Virus record (IMG/VR): IMGVR_UViG_3300025872_000322
Location: 1 to 22,808 of that record
DNA: 22,808 nucleotides
Source of the DNA: a virus
Reading direction: 5' to 3' (one strand)
Shown here: positions 3,118 through 21,402 of the stretch, one piece after another
How the letters are laid out: each line of letters begins with the position of its first letter
How positions within the stretch are numbered: the stretch's first letter is position 1
Program-made: the position numbers and the translations under genes
Notes under the pieces: generated by a model
The model's input: only the letters and a program-made list of their open reading frames with translations
Told to the model about the DNA's origin: nothing
Database searches by the model: none

Positions 3118-5286
3118 TTACTGTTGGGGCATTTCGCCCATAGGTTGAGGCATTTCGCCCATTAGTTGTTGAGGTTCTACCTGTGGCACCATGCTACCCA
3201 CAGAAAGATCGCCACTCTCCAAGGCCGCAAACAGCGTACCCTGGACGATGTCCTGAATCTGTTCCGGCGTCATGCCGCTAGATACCGCAGAGATCCGCTT
3301 GGTTTCAGCGTCATACTCTTTGATCTTGAGTTCCTGGGCTTCCATGCTCTGGTTGACGTTCCTAAGCATCGACGCCATCTGTTCCATCTGCTGGCCCATC
3401 TGCTGGATCTGCTGTTCAGCAGCTTGCAGTGCTGGCGGCTTGTCATCATCCGAAACAATCATTGGATCAATGGTCTTCTCAAACCGCTTGGCCATTTCCT
3501 GAGCGCCCGGCCAATCCATGTTCTTAACGAACAGATCCCCTGCCACAGCCCACAGTTGCGGGTTGCCTTGCAGCAGTTGCGCCATGCTCTCCAAGGCCTC
3601 TTGGCGCTTGGTCATGTAGTTGGGGCCAGTGGTCACCACAACATCGTACTTGCCCACAGAGGGGTTGTAGATCTTCTCAATGACAGCACCGGTCTGCATG
3701 TCCATGATCTTACGCACCGGCTCCTGTTGAGTCGGGTCGATCTTCGCCATGCTGGTATCGCCGTCAACCCCGATGATCCGAGCCACCCGTTGGGTGTCGT
3801 AATACTTGGGGATCAGGTCGATGATGATGCGGGTAACATGCCGGATGGCTCTGGCAAGGTTATCCACAAAGTGATAGGTGCCGGTATCTGCTTGCCTTTC
3901 GCGGGCGAGGATAGCCTTCCCGGAACGCTCATTACCGGCCATGCCTAAAGAGGCATCATATTGGCCTGTGGTGGCCTTTATATCGTCAGAAGCACCCATT
4001 TTAGCCTGAATCAGGCCAGTTTGTGGCATGGGTGGCATAGCACGTTGGGGCAGAGGCAACATACCGCCCTGGGCATCGGTGACATCAGGGTTCACCTCTA
4101 GGTACGGCCAGTTGTTGGTATTTGCGGTCTTCCACTGGTATTCATACCCTTCAAACTGACCGCCGTACCCAATAAACGGTGCTTTAGGTGCCAACGCCAA
4201 CATTTCGGTTTCCTGTGAAACCCAATAGTTGTACATCCGTTGGGCGTCCTTGGCATTTCGCACAATGCCAGACACATACAGCTTGCCGTCTACCTCAAAC
4301 TCGTTGCCCACCACCCGTACTACAGGGATGTGCTTACCAGCCCAGTCTTGCGGGCCTTCCAGAAACTCAAAACCGTTGGTCTTGCCCCACTTCACCATCC
4401 GGCGGGACGATTCACGGGTACGGATGGGCTTCAATCCCATCGCCTCAATGCGCTTGGCCTCGGGAGAACCTGCAAACGCCGTGATGTTGTTGGGATACAG
4501 GTTCAGGGTGGCCTTCTTGTACTCAATCCAGAAGTACTCAGCAATCCGTACCGTATCCTCATTGATCCAGTCCGAAATGGAAGGATCGCCCACCCCTTGG
4601 GCCAGAATGGACGTAATGGGCGCTGCATCAGGGTACAGACGCTCATACTCAGCCTTGGTGATGTCCTGCGTGATCAAGCACCATTGGGCATCGGCACCAC
4701 ACGGGTCTTGGATCGTAGGGTCCATGTAGACCGAGAAGCTGTTTCTGATCCGGCCAATCTTGATGTCCTGATCAAAGCTAGTCTCATCAATGTACTCGGT
4801 CAGAACCCGAATATAGCCCTCACCATACGTTACCTGGTTCTCGCAGGCAGTGTCGTAGGCCACGTCAGCATCACTGATGTACTCAATGTGACGGACGATA
4901 CCGTTCAGGATCTCGGCCACCTCAAGGTCAGCCTGGTCGTTGGCAGGGATAACCTTGCCTGATGGACGGTGCTGGCGCTGGTCGTTGGTGACCTGACGAA
5001 CGTGTTGGGGCAACTTGTTGATGGTCAGACAGGGACGGGCATTGATGGTCTGCCCTTGCACTGCACCACGGGTCTGAAGTACGTCAGCCGGCCACTGCCA
5101 CTGATTGTCCGGTGAGCCAGCGTAGAACCGGAGGTCATCCAGTTCATCCTCACGGCTTTCGGAGAACGCAGCAATGGCCACCGTCAGGCGATGCCGCATG
5201 GTGGACAGAACATTCTCGCTGCTCTGCTTTTCTTTGCCTCCGTTGGAGACTCTGCCTGCGGTCTGTATGCCTGATTGGTCAGCCAT
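3118..5286 (-). CDS. Portal protein, P22-like (722 aa)
   Basis: This is the dodecameric ring at the capsid vertex through which DNA is packaged and ejected. Length and sequence fit the P22-type portal family: an N-terminal FYAGSPDNQW region near residue 55, the block RPCLTINKLPQHVRQVTNDQR around 85-105, the stem/wing region with TYGEGYIRVLTEY, and the SGKAILARERQ segment typical of P22 portals. Residues ~615-665 are Gln/Met-rich and likely coiled coil (QQIQQMGQQMEQMASMLRN), matching the barrel of P22 portals. The last residues repeat GEMPQ twice. The ATG at 5286 directly follows the stop of the 52-aa gene (TAAATG). TerL and TerS lie upstream in the same operon, as expected for a packaging machine. 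Confidence 0.95.
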   Translation of the reverse strand: MADQSGIQTAGRVSNGGKEKQSSENVLSTMRHRLTVAIAAFSESREDELDDLRFYAGSPDNQWQWPADVLQTRGAVQGQTINARPCLTINKLPQHVRQVTNDQRQHRPSGKVIPANDQADLEVAEILNGIVRHIEYISDADVAYDTACENQVTYGEGYIRVLTEYIDETSFDQDIKIGRIRNSFSVYMDPTIQDPCGADAQWCLITQDITKAEYERLYPDAAPITSILAQGVGDPSISDWINEDTVRIAEYFWIEYKKATLNLYPNNITAFAGSPEAKRIEAMGLKPIRTRESSRRMVKWGKTNGFEFLEGPQDWAGKHIPVVRVVGNEFEVDGKLYVSGIVRNAKDAQRMYNYWVSQETEMLALAPKAPFIGYGGQFEGYEYQWKTANTNNWPYLEVNPDVTDAQGGMLPLPQRAMPPMPQTGLIQAKMGASDDIKATTGQYDASLGMAGNERSGKAILARERQADTGTYHFVDNLARAIRHVTRIIIDLIPKYYDTQRVARIIGVDGDTSMAKIDPTQQEPVRKIMDMQTGAVIEKIYNPSVGKYDVVVTTGPNYMTKRQEALESMAQLLQGNPQLWAVAGDLFVKNMDWPGAQEMAKRFEKTIDPMIVSDDDKPPALQAAEQQIQQMGQQMEQMASMLRNVNQSMEAQELKIKEYDAETKRISAVSSGMTPEQIQDIVQGTLFAALESGDLSVGSMVPQVEPQQLMGEMPQPMGEMPQQ

Positions 5287-14238: not shown

Positions 14239-14683
14239 TAACCTCGTTACCGTTATCGAGAAGCTTGTTACCGTAATCGAAGCTGCTGGCTCAAAAGGTG
14301 TAGCACAGCCCGAGCCGGTTGTGTGCAAAAAAGAACCTGAACCCGTAGTGGTTCCACCGCCTGTTGTGGCACAACCTGCGCCAGTTCCTGCACCAGTTGT
14401 GGAACAGCCTGCCCCCGCACCAGTGGCTGCACCTGCGGCACCGGTCATGCCTGCACTGCCGACCTTCGAGTTGCCAGTGGTACCTCCGGCACCGGCCTGC
14501 CCGTTCAACGACTTCAAGGGCATGGTGGGGTATGTGACCGAGGTGTATCGCACTCTCGGGTCGCGTGGTGCTGAGATGCAGGCTGAGATCCTGGCGATGG
14601 GTCACCAGCACATCAACGATGTTCCAGCGTCTGACTACCCTGAACTCTACCGCCGGATGGAGAAGCTGAAAAATGGCGCATGA
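14216..14683 (+). CDS. Coiled coil plus proline-rich linker protein (155 aa)
   Basis: ATG at 14216, preceded by AAGGA, overlaps the previous gene by 23 bases. Three parts are seen: an N-terminal helix with heptad Leu/Ile/Val (LEQKIDNLVTVIEKLVTVIE, 3-22), a long Pro/Ala/Val linker (~28-100) and a conserved-looking C-terminal helical domain (FKGMVGYVTEVYRTLGSRGA ... DYPELYRRMEKL). The linker would hold the C-terminal domain on a flexible tether from an oligomer. Similar linker proteins stand before DUF2800 genes in phages. Function unknown; a replisome adaptor is a guess. Confidence 0.82.
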   Translation: MSLEQKIDNLVTVIEKLVTVIEAAGSKGVAQPEPVVCKKEPEPVVVPPPVVAQPAPVPAPVVEQPAPAPVAAPAAPVMPALPTFELPVVPPAPACPFNDFKGMVGYVTEVYRTLGSRGAEMQAEILAMGHQHINDVPASDYPELYRRMEKLKNGA

Positions 14684-15953
14684 CCAGTTCAGCCCATCTA
14701 AGCGTCACCAGTTCGGTCACTGCCCCGGTTCGATCCGTGAGCAGGCTAAGTACCCAGAGGGGCCGTCTGGCCCCGCTGCGGTTGATGGTACGCATACCCA
14801 TACCCTGCTGGAGCACTGCATCAAGGGCAACCTGATCAGTCCTCGCAACATGGTAGGCATCACCCTGGAAGACCATGAGGGTCAGTTCGTAGTTGATGCT
14901 GATCGATCTGAGCGGGTCCAGGTCGCCATCGAATACATCCGCCAGCGGGTGGAAGCCCATGGTGGGATGTGCGAGGTGCTGTCGGAGACTCGGGTCGAAC
15001 CTGAGTTCCTGATTGGTCGCAAGGGTGCTGGCGGCACAGTGGACGTGCAGATCATCGGCGGCGGTGTGCTTGAGTTGATCGACTACAAGGACGGCATCCA
15101 GCCCACCGACGCCAAAGACCAATTGGAACAATATGCGGTCGGAGCACTGGCAAAATACCGGATACCGATTAATCTTGAGTATCCGGTCCATACAGTGCGT
15201 ATGACCGTCGTGCAGCCCAAACTTGCACTGAAGGGATTGGACCCGATCACCATCAGGGAAGTACCGGTCAAGTACATCCTCGACGACGTGGTAGGAAAGT
15301 TAGCTGCAGAACTGGCGAACGCCTCTGCACCGGACGCACCGCTGATCCCCGGTGAACTGCAGTGCAAGTGGTGCCGCGCCAAGGGTGGATGTGCCGCACT
15401 GGCAAACAAGGTAATGAGTGAGGTTAATGTAATGTTCACACCAACGACCAGTCCGATGGACATGGCGCAGCAGAGCGCCAACAAAGACCCTGCCACGATG
15501 GACGCAGACCAGATCCGTCAGATCCTGGAAGCAGCACCCCTGCTGCGCCAGATGCTGGAGAGCGTCGAAGAGGAAGCCAAGCGCCGCCTCGAGGCAGGCC
15601 AGGCCATCCCAGGCCTCAAGCTGGTCCATGGTCGCGGTAGCCGCGTCTGGGCCTTCGGCGAGGACGAGATGGCCGAGAAGCTGATCCAGATGGGTATTCC
15701 CAAGGCTGCGATCTACGAGACCAAGCTGGTCACGCCTGCCAAGGCCGAGAAGCTGTCGTGGGAAAAGCGCGATGGTACGAAGAAGCAACTGAGCAAGAAG
15801 CAACTGGACAGACTGAGCGAGTACATCACCAAGATGGCCGGGAAGTTGACCGTTGCACCAGAAAGCGATAGCCGTCCGGCTGTCACTGTGGACGCCGCCC
15901 CACTGTTTAGCGCGGTAAAAAGTGAGCCGGAACTTCCGGCTTGGTTACGGTAA
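14673..15953 (+). CDS. DUF2800 Cas4/RecB-like nuclease (426 aa)
   Basis: This is a PD-(D/E)XK exonuclease of the DUF2800 family, found in phage replication modules. The core shows GGTVDVQII (D124) followed by ELIDYKDG (D137-Y-K139), and a downstream Gln-containing helix (DQLEQYAVGALAKY). Cysteines C17 and C231-x2-C234-x5-C240 (CKWCRAKGGC) reproduce the four-cysteine iron-sulphur pattern of Cas4 and AddB. The C-terminal ~170 residues (after residue 255) are helical and charged, probably for DNA or partner binding. The start overlaps the previous gene by 11 bases. Its stop lies within the first copy of the 22-bp repeat. Confidence 0.9.
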   Translation: MAHDQFSPSKRHQFGHCPGSIREQAKYPEGPSGPAAVDGTHTHTLLEHCIKGNLISPRNMVGITLEDHEGQFVVDADRSERVQVAIEYIRQRVEAHGGMCEVLSETRVEPEFLIGRKGAGGTVDVQIIGGGVLELIDYKDGIQPTDAKDQLEQYAVGALAKYRIPINLEYPVHTVRMTVVQPKLALKGLDPITIREVPVKYILDDVVGKLAAELANASAPDAPLIPGELQCKWCRAKGGCAALANKVMSEVNVMFTPTTSPMDMAQQSANKDPATMDADQIRQILEAAPLLRQMLESVEEEAKRRLEAGQAIPGLKLVHGRGSRVWAFGEDEMAEKLIQMGIPKAAIYETKLVTPAKAEKLSWEKRDGTKKQLSKKQLDRLSEYITKMAGKLTVAPESDSRPAVTVDAAPLFSAVKSEPELPAWLR

Positions 15954-15971
15954 TCAGGAGTCAGTGTTATG
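15950..15971 (+). repeat. 22-bp direct repeat, left copy, with RBS and start codon
   Basis: Identical to 16235-16256 base for base; the copies are 285 bases apart. It includes the nuclease stop (TAA, 15951-15953), AGGAG (15957-15961) and the ATG of the Tad2-like gene (15969-15971). Flanking bases differ on both sides, which sets the limits of the repeat. Confidence 0.9.
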
Positions 15972-16229
15972 AATTTTGGTGATGCGGTTATTGCGTTAAA
16001 AGATGGGAAAAAAGTCACTCGTACGGGCTGGAACGGAAAAGGAATGTTTTTATTCTTAGTGCCCGGATCAATTTTTAACGTCAATCGTCCCCCGTTGTTG
16101 GGGGTTTATCCTGAAGGTACGCAAATTAACTATCGTTCACATATTGATATGAAAACGGTAGATGGTGAGGTTGTACCATGGGTCGCAAGTCAATCGGATA
16201 TTTTGTCTGAAGATTGGCAAATTGTGTAA
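15969..16229 (+). CDS. tad2: Tad2-like anti-Thoeris protein, DUF2829 (86 aa)
   Basis: The sequence follows the DUF2829 family along its whole length: MNFGDAVIALKDGKKVTRTG, then WNGKGMFLFLVPGS, INYRSHIDMKT, VPWVASQSDILSEDW. This family includes Tad2 of phage SPO1, which binds and sequesters the cyclic ADP-ribose-type signal made by ThsB in the Thoeris defence, so that ThsA is not activated. Length is typical. The gene has about 41% GC (hand count), against more than 60% in stretches of the nuclease upstream. It is bounded by 22-bp direct repeats, each with a ribosome-binding site and ATG, pointing to acquisition as a unit. Ligand range cannot be told from sequence. Confidence 0.9.
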   Translation: MNFGDAVIALKDGKKVTRTGWNGKGMFLFLVPGSIFNVNRPPLLGVYPEGTQINYRSHIDMKTVDGEVVPWVASQSDILSEDWQIV

Positions 16230-16234
16230 TTAAA

Positions 16235-16256
16235 GTAATCAGGAGTCAGTGTTATG
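16235..16256 (+). repeat. 22-bp direct repeat, right copy, with RBS and start codon
   Basis: Perfect copy of 15950-15971. It contains AGGAG (16241-16245) and the ATG (16254-16256) of the SSB gene. Removing one copy plus the unit between them would join the nuclease stop directly to the SSB start with normal spacing. Confidence 0.9.
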
Positions 16257-16898
16257 TCCGATGTTATTTATCTGTCCAATGTTCGCCTGTCTTTCCCCCA
16301 CCTGGCTGAGCCACAGCGCCAGAAGAACGAAATGACGGGAAAGGAGCGCATCTCTTACAACTGTGAGTTGCTGATGCTGCCAGACCATCCCGGCTTCCAG
16401 CAGTTCATGAAGCGCTACGGTGAGATGGCCCTGCAGAAGTGGGGTGAACACGCCCAGCCCGTCATGCAGATGGTGCAGGCTGAACGCAAGTTGCGCTGCT
16501 ATGGTCGCGGTGAGGAGAAGGTCAACAAGAAGACCTTCCAGCCCTATGACGGCTACGCGGGTCACGTCTACATCACTTGCGGCAGGGACACCCCTCCCCA
16601 GGCGATCCAGGACGATGGCAACCCGGTAGACTCTGCCAACACCATGGCGTACCAGGCGATCACTCGTCGCATGTACGGCGGTTGCCGGGTAAACGTGGCG
16701 ATCAAACCATGGCTGCAGGAGAACCAGTATGGCCGCGGTGTGCGGGCTGACTTGGTTGCCATCCAGTTTGCCGGCGACGACAAGGCATTCGGTGAGGGCG
16801 CTGCAGATGTCAGCCCCATGTTCAAGCCAGTGGCTGCGGCTCCTGCTGCTGCCCCTGCCGCGATGATCCCCGGTCTGCCTCCGTTCCTTCAAGGCTAA
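16254..16898 (+). CDS. ssb: Enc34-like ssDNA-binding protein, DUF2815 (214 aa)
   Basis: The sequence matches the DUF2815 family, whose member from phage Enc34 binds single-stranded DNA through an OB fold. Typical parts are the N-terminus VIYLSNVRLSFPHL, the segment KLRCYGRGEEKV with YDGYAGHVYITC, and the block MYGGCRVNVAIKPWLQEN followed by GRGVRADLVAIQFAGDD. The C-terminus is an Ala/Pro linker ending in GLPPFLQG, a tail that could bind partners. It would protect single strands made by the helicase and help the polymerase next in the operon. The start lies in the right 22-bp repeat. Confidence 0.9.
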   Translation: MSDVIYLSNVRLSFPHLAEPQRQKNEMTGKERISYNCELLMLPDHPGFQQFMKRYGEMALQKWGEHAQPVMQMVQAERKLRCYGRGEEKVNKKTFQPYDGYAGHVYITCGRDTPPQAIQDDGNPVDSANTMAYQAITRRMYGGCRVNVAIKPWLQENQYGRGVRADLVAIQFAGDDKAFGEGAADVSPMFKPVAAAPAAAPAAMIPGLPPFLQG

Positions 16899-16957
16899 TC
16901 CGTCCTCAGCGCCATCTGGACGACGGATCGTGGAGCCTGCCCACGTTAAAAACAGGC
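16898..16957 (+). other. Two hairpins in the spacer between SSB and polymerase
   Basis: ATCCGTC (16898-16904) pairs with GACGGAT (16922-16928) across 17 bases, and GCCTG (16935-16939) with CAGGC (16953-16957) across 13 bases. The spacer is 81 bases, long for this operon, in which other genes overlap. No T-run follows, so this is more likely RNA processing or expression tuning than termination. Confidence 0.4.
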
Positions 16958-16979
16958 ACTACTTTGTAAGGTAAAGGTA

Positions 16980-18812
16980 ATGAGCGACGACTACATCTAC
17001 GACATCGAGACATTCCCCAACTGCTTCCTCGCAGCCTTTGAGCACGTTGAGATCCCCATCCAACTGATGTTCGAGATCAGCGACAGACGCAACGACAGCA
17101 AGGCGCTGATCGACTTCCTACACTACCTCCAGGCGACCAATGCCAAGCTGATCGGGTTCAACAACCTCGGCTTCGACTATCCTGTACTACATCAGTTCAT
17201 CAAAATGGGACGCTCCGATGCGAATACGCTTTATCAGAAAGCGCAGGCAATCTTTGCGGCGCAGGACCTGGACGACCGGTGGACGCATCAAGTCTATCCG
17301 GGTGATCGATACATCGAGCAGATCGACCTTTTCAAGATCCATCACTTTGATAACAAGGCGAGATCTACCAGCCTCAAGGCCCTCGAATTCAACATGCGAT
17401 CCGAGACAATTGAGGATCTGCCCTTCGCGCCGGGGACACCGCTTGAAAGCGCTCAAATGGATACGCTCCGTCAATACAACCTGCATGATGTAAAGCAGAC
17501 AAAACAGTTCTACAAGAAGTCGCTGGACATGCTCAGATTTCGCCAAGAGCTATCTGCGAAGTATCAGCGCGACTTCATGAACCACAACGACACGAAGATC
17601 GGTAAAGACTACTTCGTGATGAAGCTGGAGGAGGCCGGTGTCGCCTGCTACGACTACGGCACCAAGGGTCGCACACCCAGACAGACCAAGCGCCCTGTGA
17701 TCCGTCTGGCTGACGCCATCCTGCCATGGATTGACTTCGACCTGCGTGAGTTCAAGCGGGTGCTCAACTGGCTCAAGCAACAGCAAATCACCGAGACCAA
17801 GGGTGTGTTCAAAGACCTTGTGGCTACTATCGACGGACTTGATTTCGTGTTTGGCCTTGGCGGTATTCACGGGTCAGTCGAGTCGCGCATCATTGAGTCT
17901 GACGACAACCATGTGATCATCGACCTCGATGTGTCCAGTTACTACCCCAATGTCGCTATCGCCAACGAGTTCTACCCCGAACACCTCGGCAAAACCTTCT
18001 GCACTATCTACAAGAACCTCTATGAACAACGAAAACAATACGACAAAAAGTCTGCTGAAAACGCGATGCTTAAGCTGGCTCTTAACGGCGTATATGGTGA
18101 TTCTAACAATCAGTTCTCTGTGTTTTATGACCCGCTGTTCACTATGAAGACCACGCTTAATGGGCAGTTGCTACTGTGTATGTTGGCAGAGTCGTTGATG
18201 GAGATTGACGACCTTGAACTCATCCAGATCAACACTGACGGTCTGACGGTGCGTGTACCGCGCAGTCAAGAAATGGCAGTAGACGACAGACGTGTGTGGT
18301 GGGAGAAGCTGACCAAGTTACAACTGGAGGATGTCACATACCAGACCATGTGTATTCGGGATGTGAACAACTATCTCGCAGTGAAGACAGACGGGTCTGT
18401 GAAGCGCAGAGGAGCCTATGAGTATGTCATCGGCTGGCATCAGAACGCTGGCGGTCTGGTGATCCCCAAGGTCGCTGAGAAGGTACTCGTTGAGGGTGCA
18501 CCGATCCGCAAGACGGTAATGGAGTGGCCCGACAAGATGGACTTCATGCTCCGCACCAAGGTACCTCGGTCAAGCTACCTCCAGTGGGGCGATGGCAAGG
18601 TACAGAACATCAGCCGCTATTACATCGCCAAAGAAGGCAAGCCGCTGATCAAGTGGATGCCGCCCCTCAAAGGCAAGACCGAGTGGCGCAAGATCGCCGT
18701 CGAGTCTGGCTGGAACGTACAGGTATGCAACGACATCAATGATGCGACGTTGCCTGTGGACTACGAATATTACATCAAAGAAGTCGAAAAACTGGTGCTT
18801 GGATTATGCTAG
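16980..18812 (+). CDS. DNA polymerase, family B (610 aa)
   Basis: The replicative polymerase with proofreading. Exonuclease motifs: YDIET (D8, E10), GFNNLGFD (N62, D66) and YNLHD (Y166, D170). Polymerase motifs: A is DLDVSSYYPN (D317), B is KLALNGVYG (K365, G373), C is NTDG (418-421), where the usual DTD reads NTD; the second Asp (D420), the catalytic one in family B, is kept. Only ~45 residues lie between A and B, leaving no room for the TPR1 insert of protein-primed enzymes, so priming by the PrimPol at 11476 fits. AAGGTAAAGGTA precedes the ATG. The stop overlaps the next gene by 7 bases. Confidence 0.93.
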   Translation: MSDDYIYDIETFPNCFLAAFEHVEIPIQLMFEISDRRNDSKALIDFLHYLQATNAKLIGFNNLGFDYPVLHQFIKMGRSDANTLYQKAQAIFAAQDLDDRWTHQVYPGDRYIEQIDLFKIHHFDNKARSTSLKALEFNMRSETIEDLPFAPGTPLESAQMDTLRQYNLHDVKQTKQFYKKSLDMLRFRQELSAKYQRDFMNHNDTKIGKDYFVMKLEEAGVACYDYGTKGRTPRQTKRPVIRLADAILPWIDFDLREFKRVLNWLKQQQITETKGVFKDLVATIDGLDFVFGLGGIHGSVESRIIESDDNHVIIDLDVSSYYPNVAIANEFYPEHLGKTFCTIYKNLYEQRKQYDKKSAENAMLKLALNGVYGDSNNQFSVFYDPLFTMKTTLNGQLLLCMLAESLMEIDDLELIQINTDGLTVRVPRSQEMAVDDRRVWWEKLTKLQLEDVTYQTMCIRDVNNYLAVKTDGSVKRRGAYEYVIGWHQNAGGLVIPKVAEKVLVEGAPIRKTVMEWPDKMDFMLRTKVPRSSYLQWGDGKVQNISRYYIAKEGKPLIKWMPPLKGKTEWRKIAVESGWNVQVCNDINDATLPVDYEYYIKEVEKLVLGLC

Positions 18813-20522: not shown

Positions 20523-20822
20523 ATGTATAACAAGATATGTACTGTCCCCCTATGCAACTATCCAGTAGGTGAGTGCGGCGGGGGCTGCTGGCATCCAGAA
20601 GAGAAGCAGATGTCCCTGTTTGACGAGGAACGTGCCGACATTATTGCCAGTAATGGCAACACGGGCGAGCACTACACTCCAGCGTCAAAGGTCTGCGTGG
20701 TTGTCATCGAGGACGGAAAGATTGTCCTCGACTACATGTCCAGTTGGCTTACCGGCAACGGGGTTGACCAGTTGGAAAGGGCCAAGAAGATGATCGATGT
20801 AATTGTAAGGAGTAAGAAATGA
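20523..20822 (+). CDS. Hypothetical protein with N-terminal cysteines (99 aa)
   Basis: ATG at 20523, nine bases after the helicase stop. The N-terminus carries cysteines C6, C11, C18 and C22 with a His at 24 (MYNKICTVPLCNYPVGECGG then GCWHPEE), which could bind zinc. The C-terminal part (SKVCVVVIEDGKIVLDYMSSW) is beta-rich, followed by an amphipathic helix. Its stop overlaps the next start as ATGA. No family recognised. Confidence 0.78.
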   Translation: MYNKICTVPLCNYPVGECGGGCWHPEEKQMSLFDEERADIIASNGNTGEHYTPASKVCVVVIEDGKIVLDYMSSWLTGNGVDQLERAKKMIDVIVRSKK

Positions 20823-21133
20823 CACGCGACAAGCTAGAAAAGATGGCAAAAGCCGCAAAGATTTTTGATCTGTACGGCCAGCAGGCAAAACAGCGCACAA
20901 CATTTTTGCTAAGCGACAAGGAATTAAAGCGGTTTCAGGATTTTCTTGAGGCGCTTGAAAAGTTCGCTGGACTAGTGGCCGCGCATGAGCGGGAGGAGTG
21001 TGCGAAGGTGTGCGAGGCTCAACAAAACATGGCGGTTATGAGGCATCCAGCGCGAATTGAAGTTGAGCAGTCTACGCAAAACATGATGGCGTTAAAGTGT
21101 GCTGGACTAATCCGAGCAAGGGGGCAGGAATGA
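20819..21133 (+). CDS. Small helical phage protein, tandem paralogue 1 (104 aa)
   Basis: Starts with ATGA overlap at 20819. The product opens MTRDKLEKMAKAAK and holds FAGLVAAHEREECAKVCE and a C-terminal AGLIRARGQE, the same frame of motifs as the next gene. The segment LVAAHEREECAKV is very common in small phage proteins of unknown function. The middle differs (a helix with KELKRFQDFLEALEKF). An older duplication followed by divergence is the simplest reading. Confidence 0.8.
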   Translation: MTRDKLEKMAKAAKIFDLYGQQAKQRTTFLLSDKELKRFQDFLEALEKFAGLVAAHEREECAKVCEAQQNMAVMRHPARIEVEQSTQNMMALKCAGLIRARGQE

Positions 21134-21402
21134 CACGCAACAAGCTAGAAAAGCTGGCGCAAGAGGCTGGCTGGTCAGGTCTTTACATTCATTGGGCAGA
21201 GCCTGATAACAAACCGGATTGGCGTCCGGTCAAAACAAGTCTTACCGTCCCGGTAACAATGGAACAAATCGAACGCTTCGCCGCACTGGTAGCGGCGCAT
21301 GAGCGGGAAGAGTGCGCCAGGTTGGTGGACGAGTTTGGAGAGGAGTGGATTTGTGATTCGAGCGAATTGAGCAAGTTGATTCGAGCAAGGAGGCAGGAAT
21401 GA
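21130..21402 (+). CDS. Small helical phage protein, tandem paralogue 2 (90 aa)
   Basis: I choose ATG at 21130 since it overlaps the previous stop as ATGA and gives an N-terminus (MTRNKLEKLAQEAG) that matches the neighbour; the 11 codons before it are the other gene. It holds FAALVAAHEREECARLVDEF and ends in KLIRARRQE. Between them lies a different segment (YIHWAEPDNKPDWRPVKTSL). Function unknown. Confidence 0.8.
   Translation: MTRNKLEKLAQEAGWSGLYIHWAEPDNKPDWRPVKTSLTVPVTMEQIERFAALVAAHEREECARLVDEFGEEWICDSSELSKLIRARRQE

Follow-up and report, generated by a model that had tools for sequence, protein, structure and literature searches.

A probable gain-and-loss slot for small anti-defence genes at the duplicated start signal of a phage ssb gene

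The window analyzed here is the whole 22,808-nucleotide (22.8-kb) stretch of virus record IMGVR_UViG_3300025872_000322, in which the genes for a DUF2800/PD-(D/E)XK exonuclease, a small insert protein, an Enc34/Gp2.5-like ssDNA-binding and annealing protein (ssb) and a B-type DNA polymerase follow one another on the same strand (Table 1). The 86-aa product of the insert gene matched Pfam family PF11195 (DUF2829) over its full length (positions 1 to 73 of 73; E = 2.4e-27; 95.7 bits against a cut-off of 25), and it also matched the solved Tad2 chains 8v3e (4.8e-24), 9eib (5e-24) and 8sme (9.9e-15). Judged by these matches, the insert gene is Tad2 (Thoeris anti-defence 2), of the cyclic-nucleotide sponge family. 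Proteins of this family act as sponges for gcADPR, the signal of Thoeris, which they sequester, and some bind cyclic dinucleotides as well (PMC12043709). A PADLOC search returned no match for the cargo or for the neighboring genes.

Table 1. Features at and around the exonuclease-ssb junction of the window
Feature	Position	Strand	Basis or content
DUF2800 / PD-(D/E)XK exonuclease	14673..15953	+	PF10926 5.9e-59; phrog_69 exonuclease 1.5e-81
Left repeat copy GTAATCAGGAGTCAGTGTTATG	15950..15971	+	nuclease TAA stop, AGGAG, tad2 ATG
tad2 cargo, 86 aa	15969..16229	+	Tad2 family: PF11195 and PDB Tad2 chains
Right repeat copy GTAATCAGGAGTCAGTGTTATG	16235..16256	+	AGGAG and ATG of ssb
ssb exchange tract	16245..16935 (approximate edges)	+	about 97% identical to empty-site L004; sliding identity, alignment
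ssb, Enc34 / Gp2.5-like ssDNA-binding and annealing protein	16254..16898	+	PF10991 3e-14; phrog_112 3.5e-26
DNA polymerase B-type gene	16980..18812	+	weak match to the PF10108 exonuclease domain, under the curated cut-off

An earlier, sequence-only reading of the window had described perfect 22-bp repeats that carry AGGAG and ATG and bound a 285-bp unit, and this description was confirmed. Two perfect direct copies of GTAATCAGGAGTCAGTGTTATG are present, with a start-to-start spacing of 285 bp, which is the length of the unit. Each copy ends with a start codon, at 15969 for the insert ORF and at 16254 for ssb; the TAA stop of the exonuclease gene falls within the left copy, and the right copy begins 5 nt 3' of the tad2 stop codon. 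When both strands of the window were searched with the 21-mer TAATCAGGAGTCAGTGTTATG, allowing up to three mismatches, these two sites were the only ones found, and the repeat is thus not a ribosome-binding-site (RBS) sequence common throughout the genome, as the sequence-only reading had allowed it might be. A chance origin was ruled out, since none of 100 shuffles gave as many matches to the 21-mer as the window and about 2e-5 chance pairs of 22-mers are expected in 22.8 kb. Across all of IMG/VR, the 21-mer was otherwise confined to a single sister contig of this phage, which is 99.4 to 99.6% identical to the window and carries the 21-mer twice at unchanged spacing. The GC content was 40.2% in the insert, 58.6% in the nuclease gene, 59.5% in ssb and 54.1% in the window, and the contrast counted by hand in the sequence-only reading (about 41% in the cargo against 63 to 68% upstream) was therefore about right. 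Both records are metagenome contigs, which would be in keeping with an assembly artefact at a short repeat. We consider such an artefact extremely improbable, however, since the arrangement is common to two contigs that lie 0.4 to 0.6% apart, the ORFs are intact, the composition of the cargo is unlike that of its flanks, and the tad1 version of the unit (see below) is found in several contigs and in two different backgrounds.

Relatives were collected with the exonuclease, the ssb protein and an ssb alignment as queries, together with a pattern scan, and this gave 145 sequence-distinct exonuclease-ssb junctions. The junction was empty in 136 of these, with 0 to 40 nt between the genes and a single RBS; six junctions were occupied, and three were not judgeable. 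The occupied junctions held Tad2, Tad1 (in two backgrounds), a 54-aa ORF, a DHH phosphoesterase and a non-coding insert. The Tad1 cargo is a 133-aa ORF (L382 and L421; also L411, L438, L439 and L473) that matched PDB chains of Tad1 (6.6e-19), gp184 (3.4e-20) and phrog_2428 and had no match in Pfam. The unit that contains it is bounded by the 19-bp repeat AACTGGAGTAAATGTAATG, present in the two backgrounds. The 54-aa ORF of L019, for which no match was found in phage records or Pfam, is bounded by the 19-bp repeat GGAGTAACTGTAATGTCCG, which extends into the first ssb codons. Each of these 19-bp sequences is the local ssb start as seen in empty relatives. A long RBS repeat was absent from the junctions with the DHH phosphoesterase (L422; phrog_4771, 2e-102; Pfam DHHA1 just below the cut-off) and with the non-coding insert (L267, L057, L059 and others). 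The latter insert is 224 bp long and conserved, is without a convincing ORF, gave nothing convincing in Rfam and folds mildly better than its shuffles (z = -2.24); L363, an empty near-relative of the loci that carry it, is 99.6% identical downstream. The DHH phosphoesterase, for its part, may act on nucleotide signals.

Three unrelated cargos, namely Tad2, Tad1 and the 54-aa ORF, hence lie between perfect repeats of RBS plus ATG. Nor is the gene present throughout the relatives with repeats that have diverged or are missing. With 136 of 145 junctions empty and the occupied ones differing in cargo, these results support the earlier proposal of a modular slot that gains and loses small genes at duplicated starts. 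The exonuclease-ssb junction is probably a site at which small accessory genes are gained and lost; there the ssb start has been duplicated, and the Tad2 and Tad1 occupants are putative counter-immunity sponges, a role that the sequence-only reading had not assigned to the cargo.

The sequence-only reading had further proposed that genomes with one repeat and no insert, or with other small genes between two copies, be sought among related phages, and both kinds were found. The empty junction of L400 equals the Tad1-occupied junction of L411 minus exactly a 420-bp unit, which consists of tad1 and one RBS copy. One RBS copy is present at the junction in L400 and two in L411, and the tad1 insertion is in this sense repeat flanked, with two copies where the insert is present and one where it is not. 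Downstream of the junction, L400 and L411 are 99.8% identical over 1,879 nt; upstream, they match exactly for about 60 nt and are then 84 to 95% identical. Since near-identity is limited to the downstream side, an exchange of the junction, rather than a clean insertion or deletion, could explain the pair. Moreover, the tad1 genes of L411 and L439 are 95.5% identical at the nucleotide level, whereas their 600-nt flanks are 72.1% (upstream) and 78.2% (downstream) identical, which indicated that the unit moved between lineages and occupied the same place. For the Tad2 junction of the window, a near-isogenic empty site was not found among the collected relatives; its empty relatives are all diverged, and the closest, L004, has an identity of about 70% to it outside ssb. 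Within the ssb tract (Table 1), L004 closely resembles the window, whereas identity on either side of the tract is 46 to 88%, which indicates that ssb was exchanged as a cassette and that recombination placed the left edge of this exchange in the start sequence as well. Recombination between identical starts, by which the sequence-only reading had pictured gain and loss, explains the loss and transfer of units; it does not explain the initial duplication of a recipient-specific sequence.

In each lineage, the duplicated sequence is the lineage's own local sequence, and its length ranges from 19 to 24 bp (19, 22, 22 and 24). One account of such repeats is that donor and recipient both carried a pre-existing short boundary sequence and that homologous recombination at its copies inserted tad2. 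There are precedents of this kind in mycobacteriophages of Cluster K, whose genomes contain 11 to 19 copies of a start-associated sequence of 13 bp that bears AGGAG (PMC3203893), and in phage LRRHood, where a gained stretch of 1.35 kb lies between 29-bp repeats of which relatives have a single copy (PMC3029335); in addition, a second GGAGTAANTGTAATG is present elsewhere in some relatives. However, start-associated sequences occur in many copies per genome, and the window holds two at up to three mismatches, the 21-mer being found otherwise only in the sister contig in IMG/VR. The repeats are also lineage-specific, and they match the local ssb or neighboring sequence down to bases that do not belong to the Shine-Dalgarno motif. 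We consider this account unlikely. Still less probable is a transposon-like or homing element with target-site duplication. Such an element could leave recipient sequence doubled on both sides of the insert, as is seen here, and HNH endonuclease genes do lie in the next junction (ssb-polB) of some relatives. The units, however, carry a single small gene that is not a mobility gene, and they lack a transposase (the 86-aa Tad2 ORF alone in the window); no inverted repeats were detected at the two ends of the cargo, and the length of the duplication varies, with the RBS covered in every case; a transposase, terminal inverted repeats and a duplication of fixed length, by which a transposon is recognized, are all missing from the unit.

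The ssb-polB junction, which is empty in the window (16899 to 16979), is a second, separate insertion slot in relatives. It was enlarged in 29 of 136 cases, in none of which was there a repeat longer than 12 bp, and its cargos include HNH endonuclease ORFs, an N6/N4 methyltransferase and other ORFs (L334, L404, L338, L316, L342, L263 and others). In its 21 loci with ORF cargo, which serve as a control, the longest shared repeat was 12 bp (Fisher p = 0.0017), which indicated that repeats longer than this are no general companion of inserted genes. The same loci bear on a further explanation, ordinary mosaicism combined with selection for an RBS, by which random illegitimate recombination would bring in the genes and the identical starts would stem from convergence or later gene conversion. 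Similar start sequences are indeed frequent among phage genes, and the ssb-polB cargos have RBSs that are similar without being identical. At the exonuclease-ssb junction, by contrast, 19 to 24 consecutive bases are identical, past the Shine-Dalgarno core, as against 12 or fewer shared bases in the 21 ssb-polB loci with an ORF, and mosaicism of this sort appears improbable.

Flanking repeats were absent at most Tad1 and Tad2 loci of other phages (about 150 Tad2 loci and 48 Tad1 loci). Among 54 distinct Tad1 loci, a 22-bp RBS-plus-ATG repeat of its own is carried by L474, a distant phage in which Tad1 lies directly before a Gp2.5-like ssb gene and is separated by one small ORF from a DUF2800 exonuclease gene upstream; this phage also has a polymerase gene. 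A 24-bp repeat is likewise present at Tad2 in L154, one of about 155 Tad2 loci, where the replication cluster is a different one; when relatives of the downstream gene of L154 were sought, L154 itself alone was returned. When unrelated flanks were paired as a null, the longest repeat was about 12 to 14 bp, related pairs aside. Over 3.5 Mb of loci, 59 unique repeats were 18 bp or longer, and 6 of them joined two translation starts, whereas the share of start-type sequence in the collected loci predicts 0.12; this enrichment is supportive only and not an unbiased figure, since the loci were partly picked via Tad1, Tad2 and one repeat pattern.

Some other repeats at Tad loci were set aside. The 22-bp repeat of L196 (Tad2) was considered weak, its region having several tandem duplications. 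The perfect 35- to 37-bp repeats of L493 and L496 (Tad1; at about 2943 and 3385) are a terminator-like hairpin and the perfect 33-bp repeat of L483 (Tad1; at 2946 and 3377) is plain intergenic sequence, and neither is an RBS case; these three loci indicated that local duplication around tad1 is not confined to RBS sequence. Repeats of RBS plus ATG of 21 to 24 bp were also seen around small genes elsewhere, in L386 (reverse strand, 4676 and 5033), in L485 (4512 and 5348) and in L370 (three copies on the reverse strand at 3151, 3955 and 4620, in a tandem-paralogue family). The window itself has another repeat, 41 nt long and 85% identical between its copies (20807 to 20847 and 21118 to 21158), that lies over the starts of two adjacent small paralogues beginning MTRDKLEK... 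and MTRNKLEK....

Comparison of the sequences establishes the slot, its alternative cargos, the exact-unit difference, the movement of tad1 and the lineage-specific duplication of the start; how the cassette would have formed and would act can be outlined as follows. The cassette would be a single gene with hardly any sequence beyond its start and stop codons, together with one copy of the initiation region of the recipient's ssb gene. The old RBS and ATG would drive the new gene and the duplicated copy would drive ssb; since each gene has an RBS and ATG of its own, we propose that both are translated from one transcript. We infer that the unit originated by template switching or by an annealing-type illegitimate recombination, in which copying or annealing would exit the recipient at the start codon, cross the donor gene and re-enter upstream of the RBS. 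Re-entry at that point would duplicate about 20 bp of the recipient. This path would explain why the repeat is recipient-derived, why its length varies between 19 and 24 bp, why the cargo is nearly flush and why three of the repeats end exactly at the ATG. Selection would retain those products in which both genes keep a working start. Once established, units would spread via homologous recombination in the flanks, and loss of a unit would follow recombination across the direct repeat. Because the slot is flanked by genes for an exonuclease and an annealing protein, it is conceivable that phage recombination functions drive the capture.

Tad2 and Tad1 would sequester Thoeris-type signals while the phage infects. 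A sponge placed behind the start signal of ssb, which encodes an abundant replication protein, may perhaps reach the high early dose that sequestration calls for. The presence of two structurally unrelated sponges in the slot suggests that immunity of the Thoeris or CBASS type has exerted selection. It is possible, and we suggest it tentatively, that phages have a recurrent route of capture by which one foreign gene enters at a start codon and the recipient's initiation region is copied anew beside it, that the preferred site of this route lies directly before ssb, between the phage's genes for the exonuclease and the annealing protein, and that the unrelated Thoeris sponges Tad1 and Tad2 have been captured by it repeatedly in distant phage families. 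If so, the cassette would be both ready-expressed and cleanly removable. The slot bears on how phages acquire single counter-defence genes without breaking tight operons; the scar of acquisition can still be read in it, the recipient gene's start signal being present as a second, exact copy. Further counter-defence genes may be sought there, with the DHH phosphoesterase and the 54-aa ORF as candidates, and any phage genome can be searched for the signature, a start-to-start direct repeat of 19 to 24 bp.

In the open-access literature searched, no description was found of an anti-defence slot at ssb with its two unrelated sponges and its duplicated start signal; for start-signal repeats, too, the searches yielded just the precedents discussed here. 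In T4-type phages, mobile regulatory cassettes, or PeSLs, are units of a promoter and a stem-loop terminator. PeSLs and the slot have in common that repeated regulatory sequences between genes shuffle accessory modules; the slot repeat, however, is a translation-initiation region in which no promoter or terminator was seen. Regulatory cassettes in T4-type phages are also mentioned, as cited work (Arbiol 2010; Comeau 2014), in PMC4503421. Phage insertions that are flanked by repeats, with a single copy in relatives, are already known from LRRHood and Cali (PMC3029335), where, as in the window, an insert lies between direct repeats (of 29 bp) that are single-copy in insert-free relatives. In those phages the repeat is located at the ends of genes and encloses four of them (1.35 kb), whereas here it comprises the RBS and start of the next gene and bounds one gene; moreover, unlike the LRRHood/Cali repeat, the repeats of the slot recur with different local sequences and cargos. 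The start-associated sequences of Cluster K (PMC3203893) likewise bear AGGAG and lie just before the starts of non-structural genes, but they are one conserved 13-mer in 11 to 19 copies per genome, whereas the repeats described here are lineage-specific, present in two copies and bound an insertion. Hotspots for anti-phage systems in P2- and P4-like phages, as a passage of PMC9122126 presents them, are fixed places with exchangeable immunity-related genes. By that description, their content is defence systems and their carriers are temperate phages and satellites, whereas the present slot holds counter-defence sponges in a replication cluster, at duplicated starts. Compared with known Tad2 proteins, the one in the window is a full-length match to the family, and the repeat-bounded slot before ssb is a feature that the papers found do not describe. 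Relative to all of these precedents, what appears to be new is the duplicated element itself (the RBS and start of the next gene), its lineage-specific two-copy state and the cargo.
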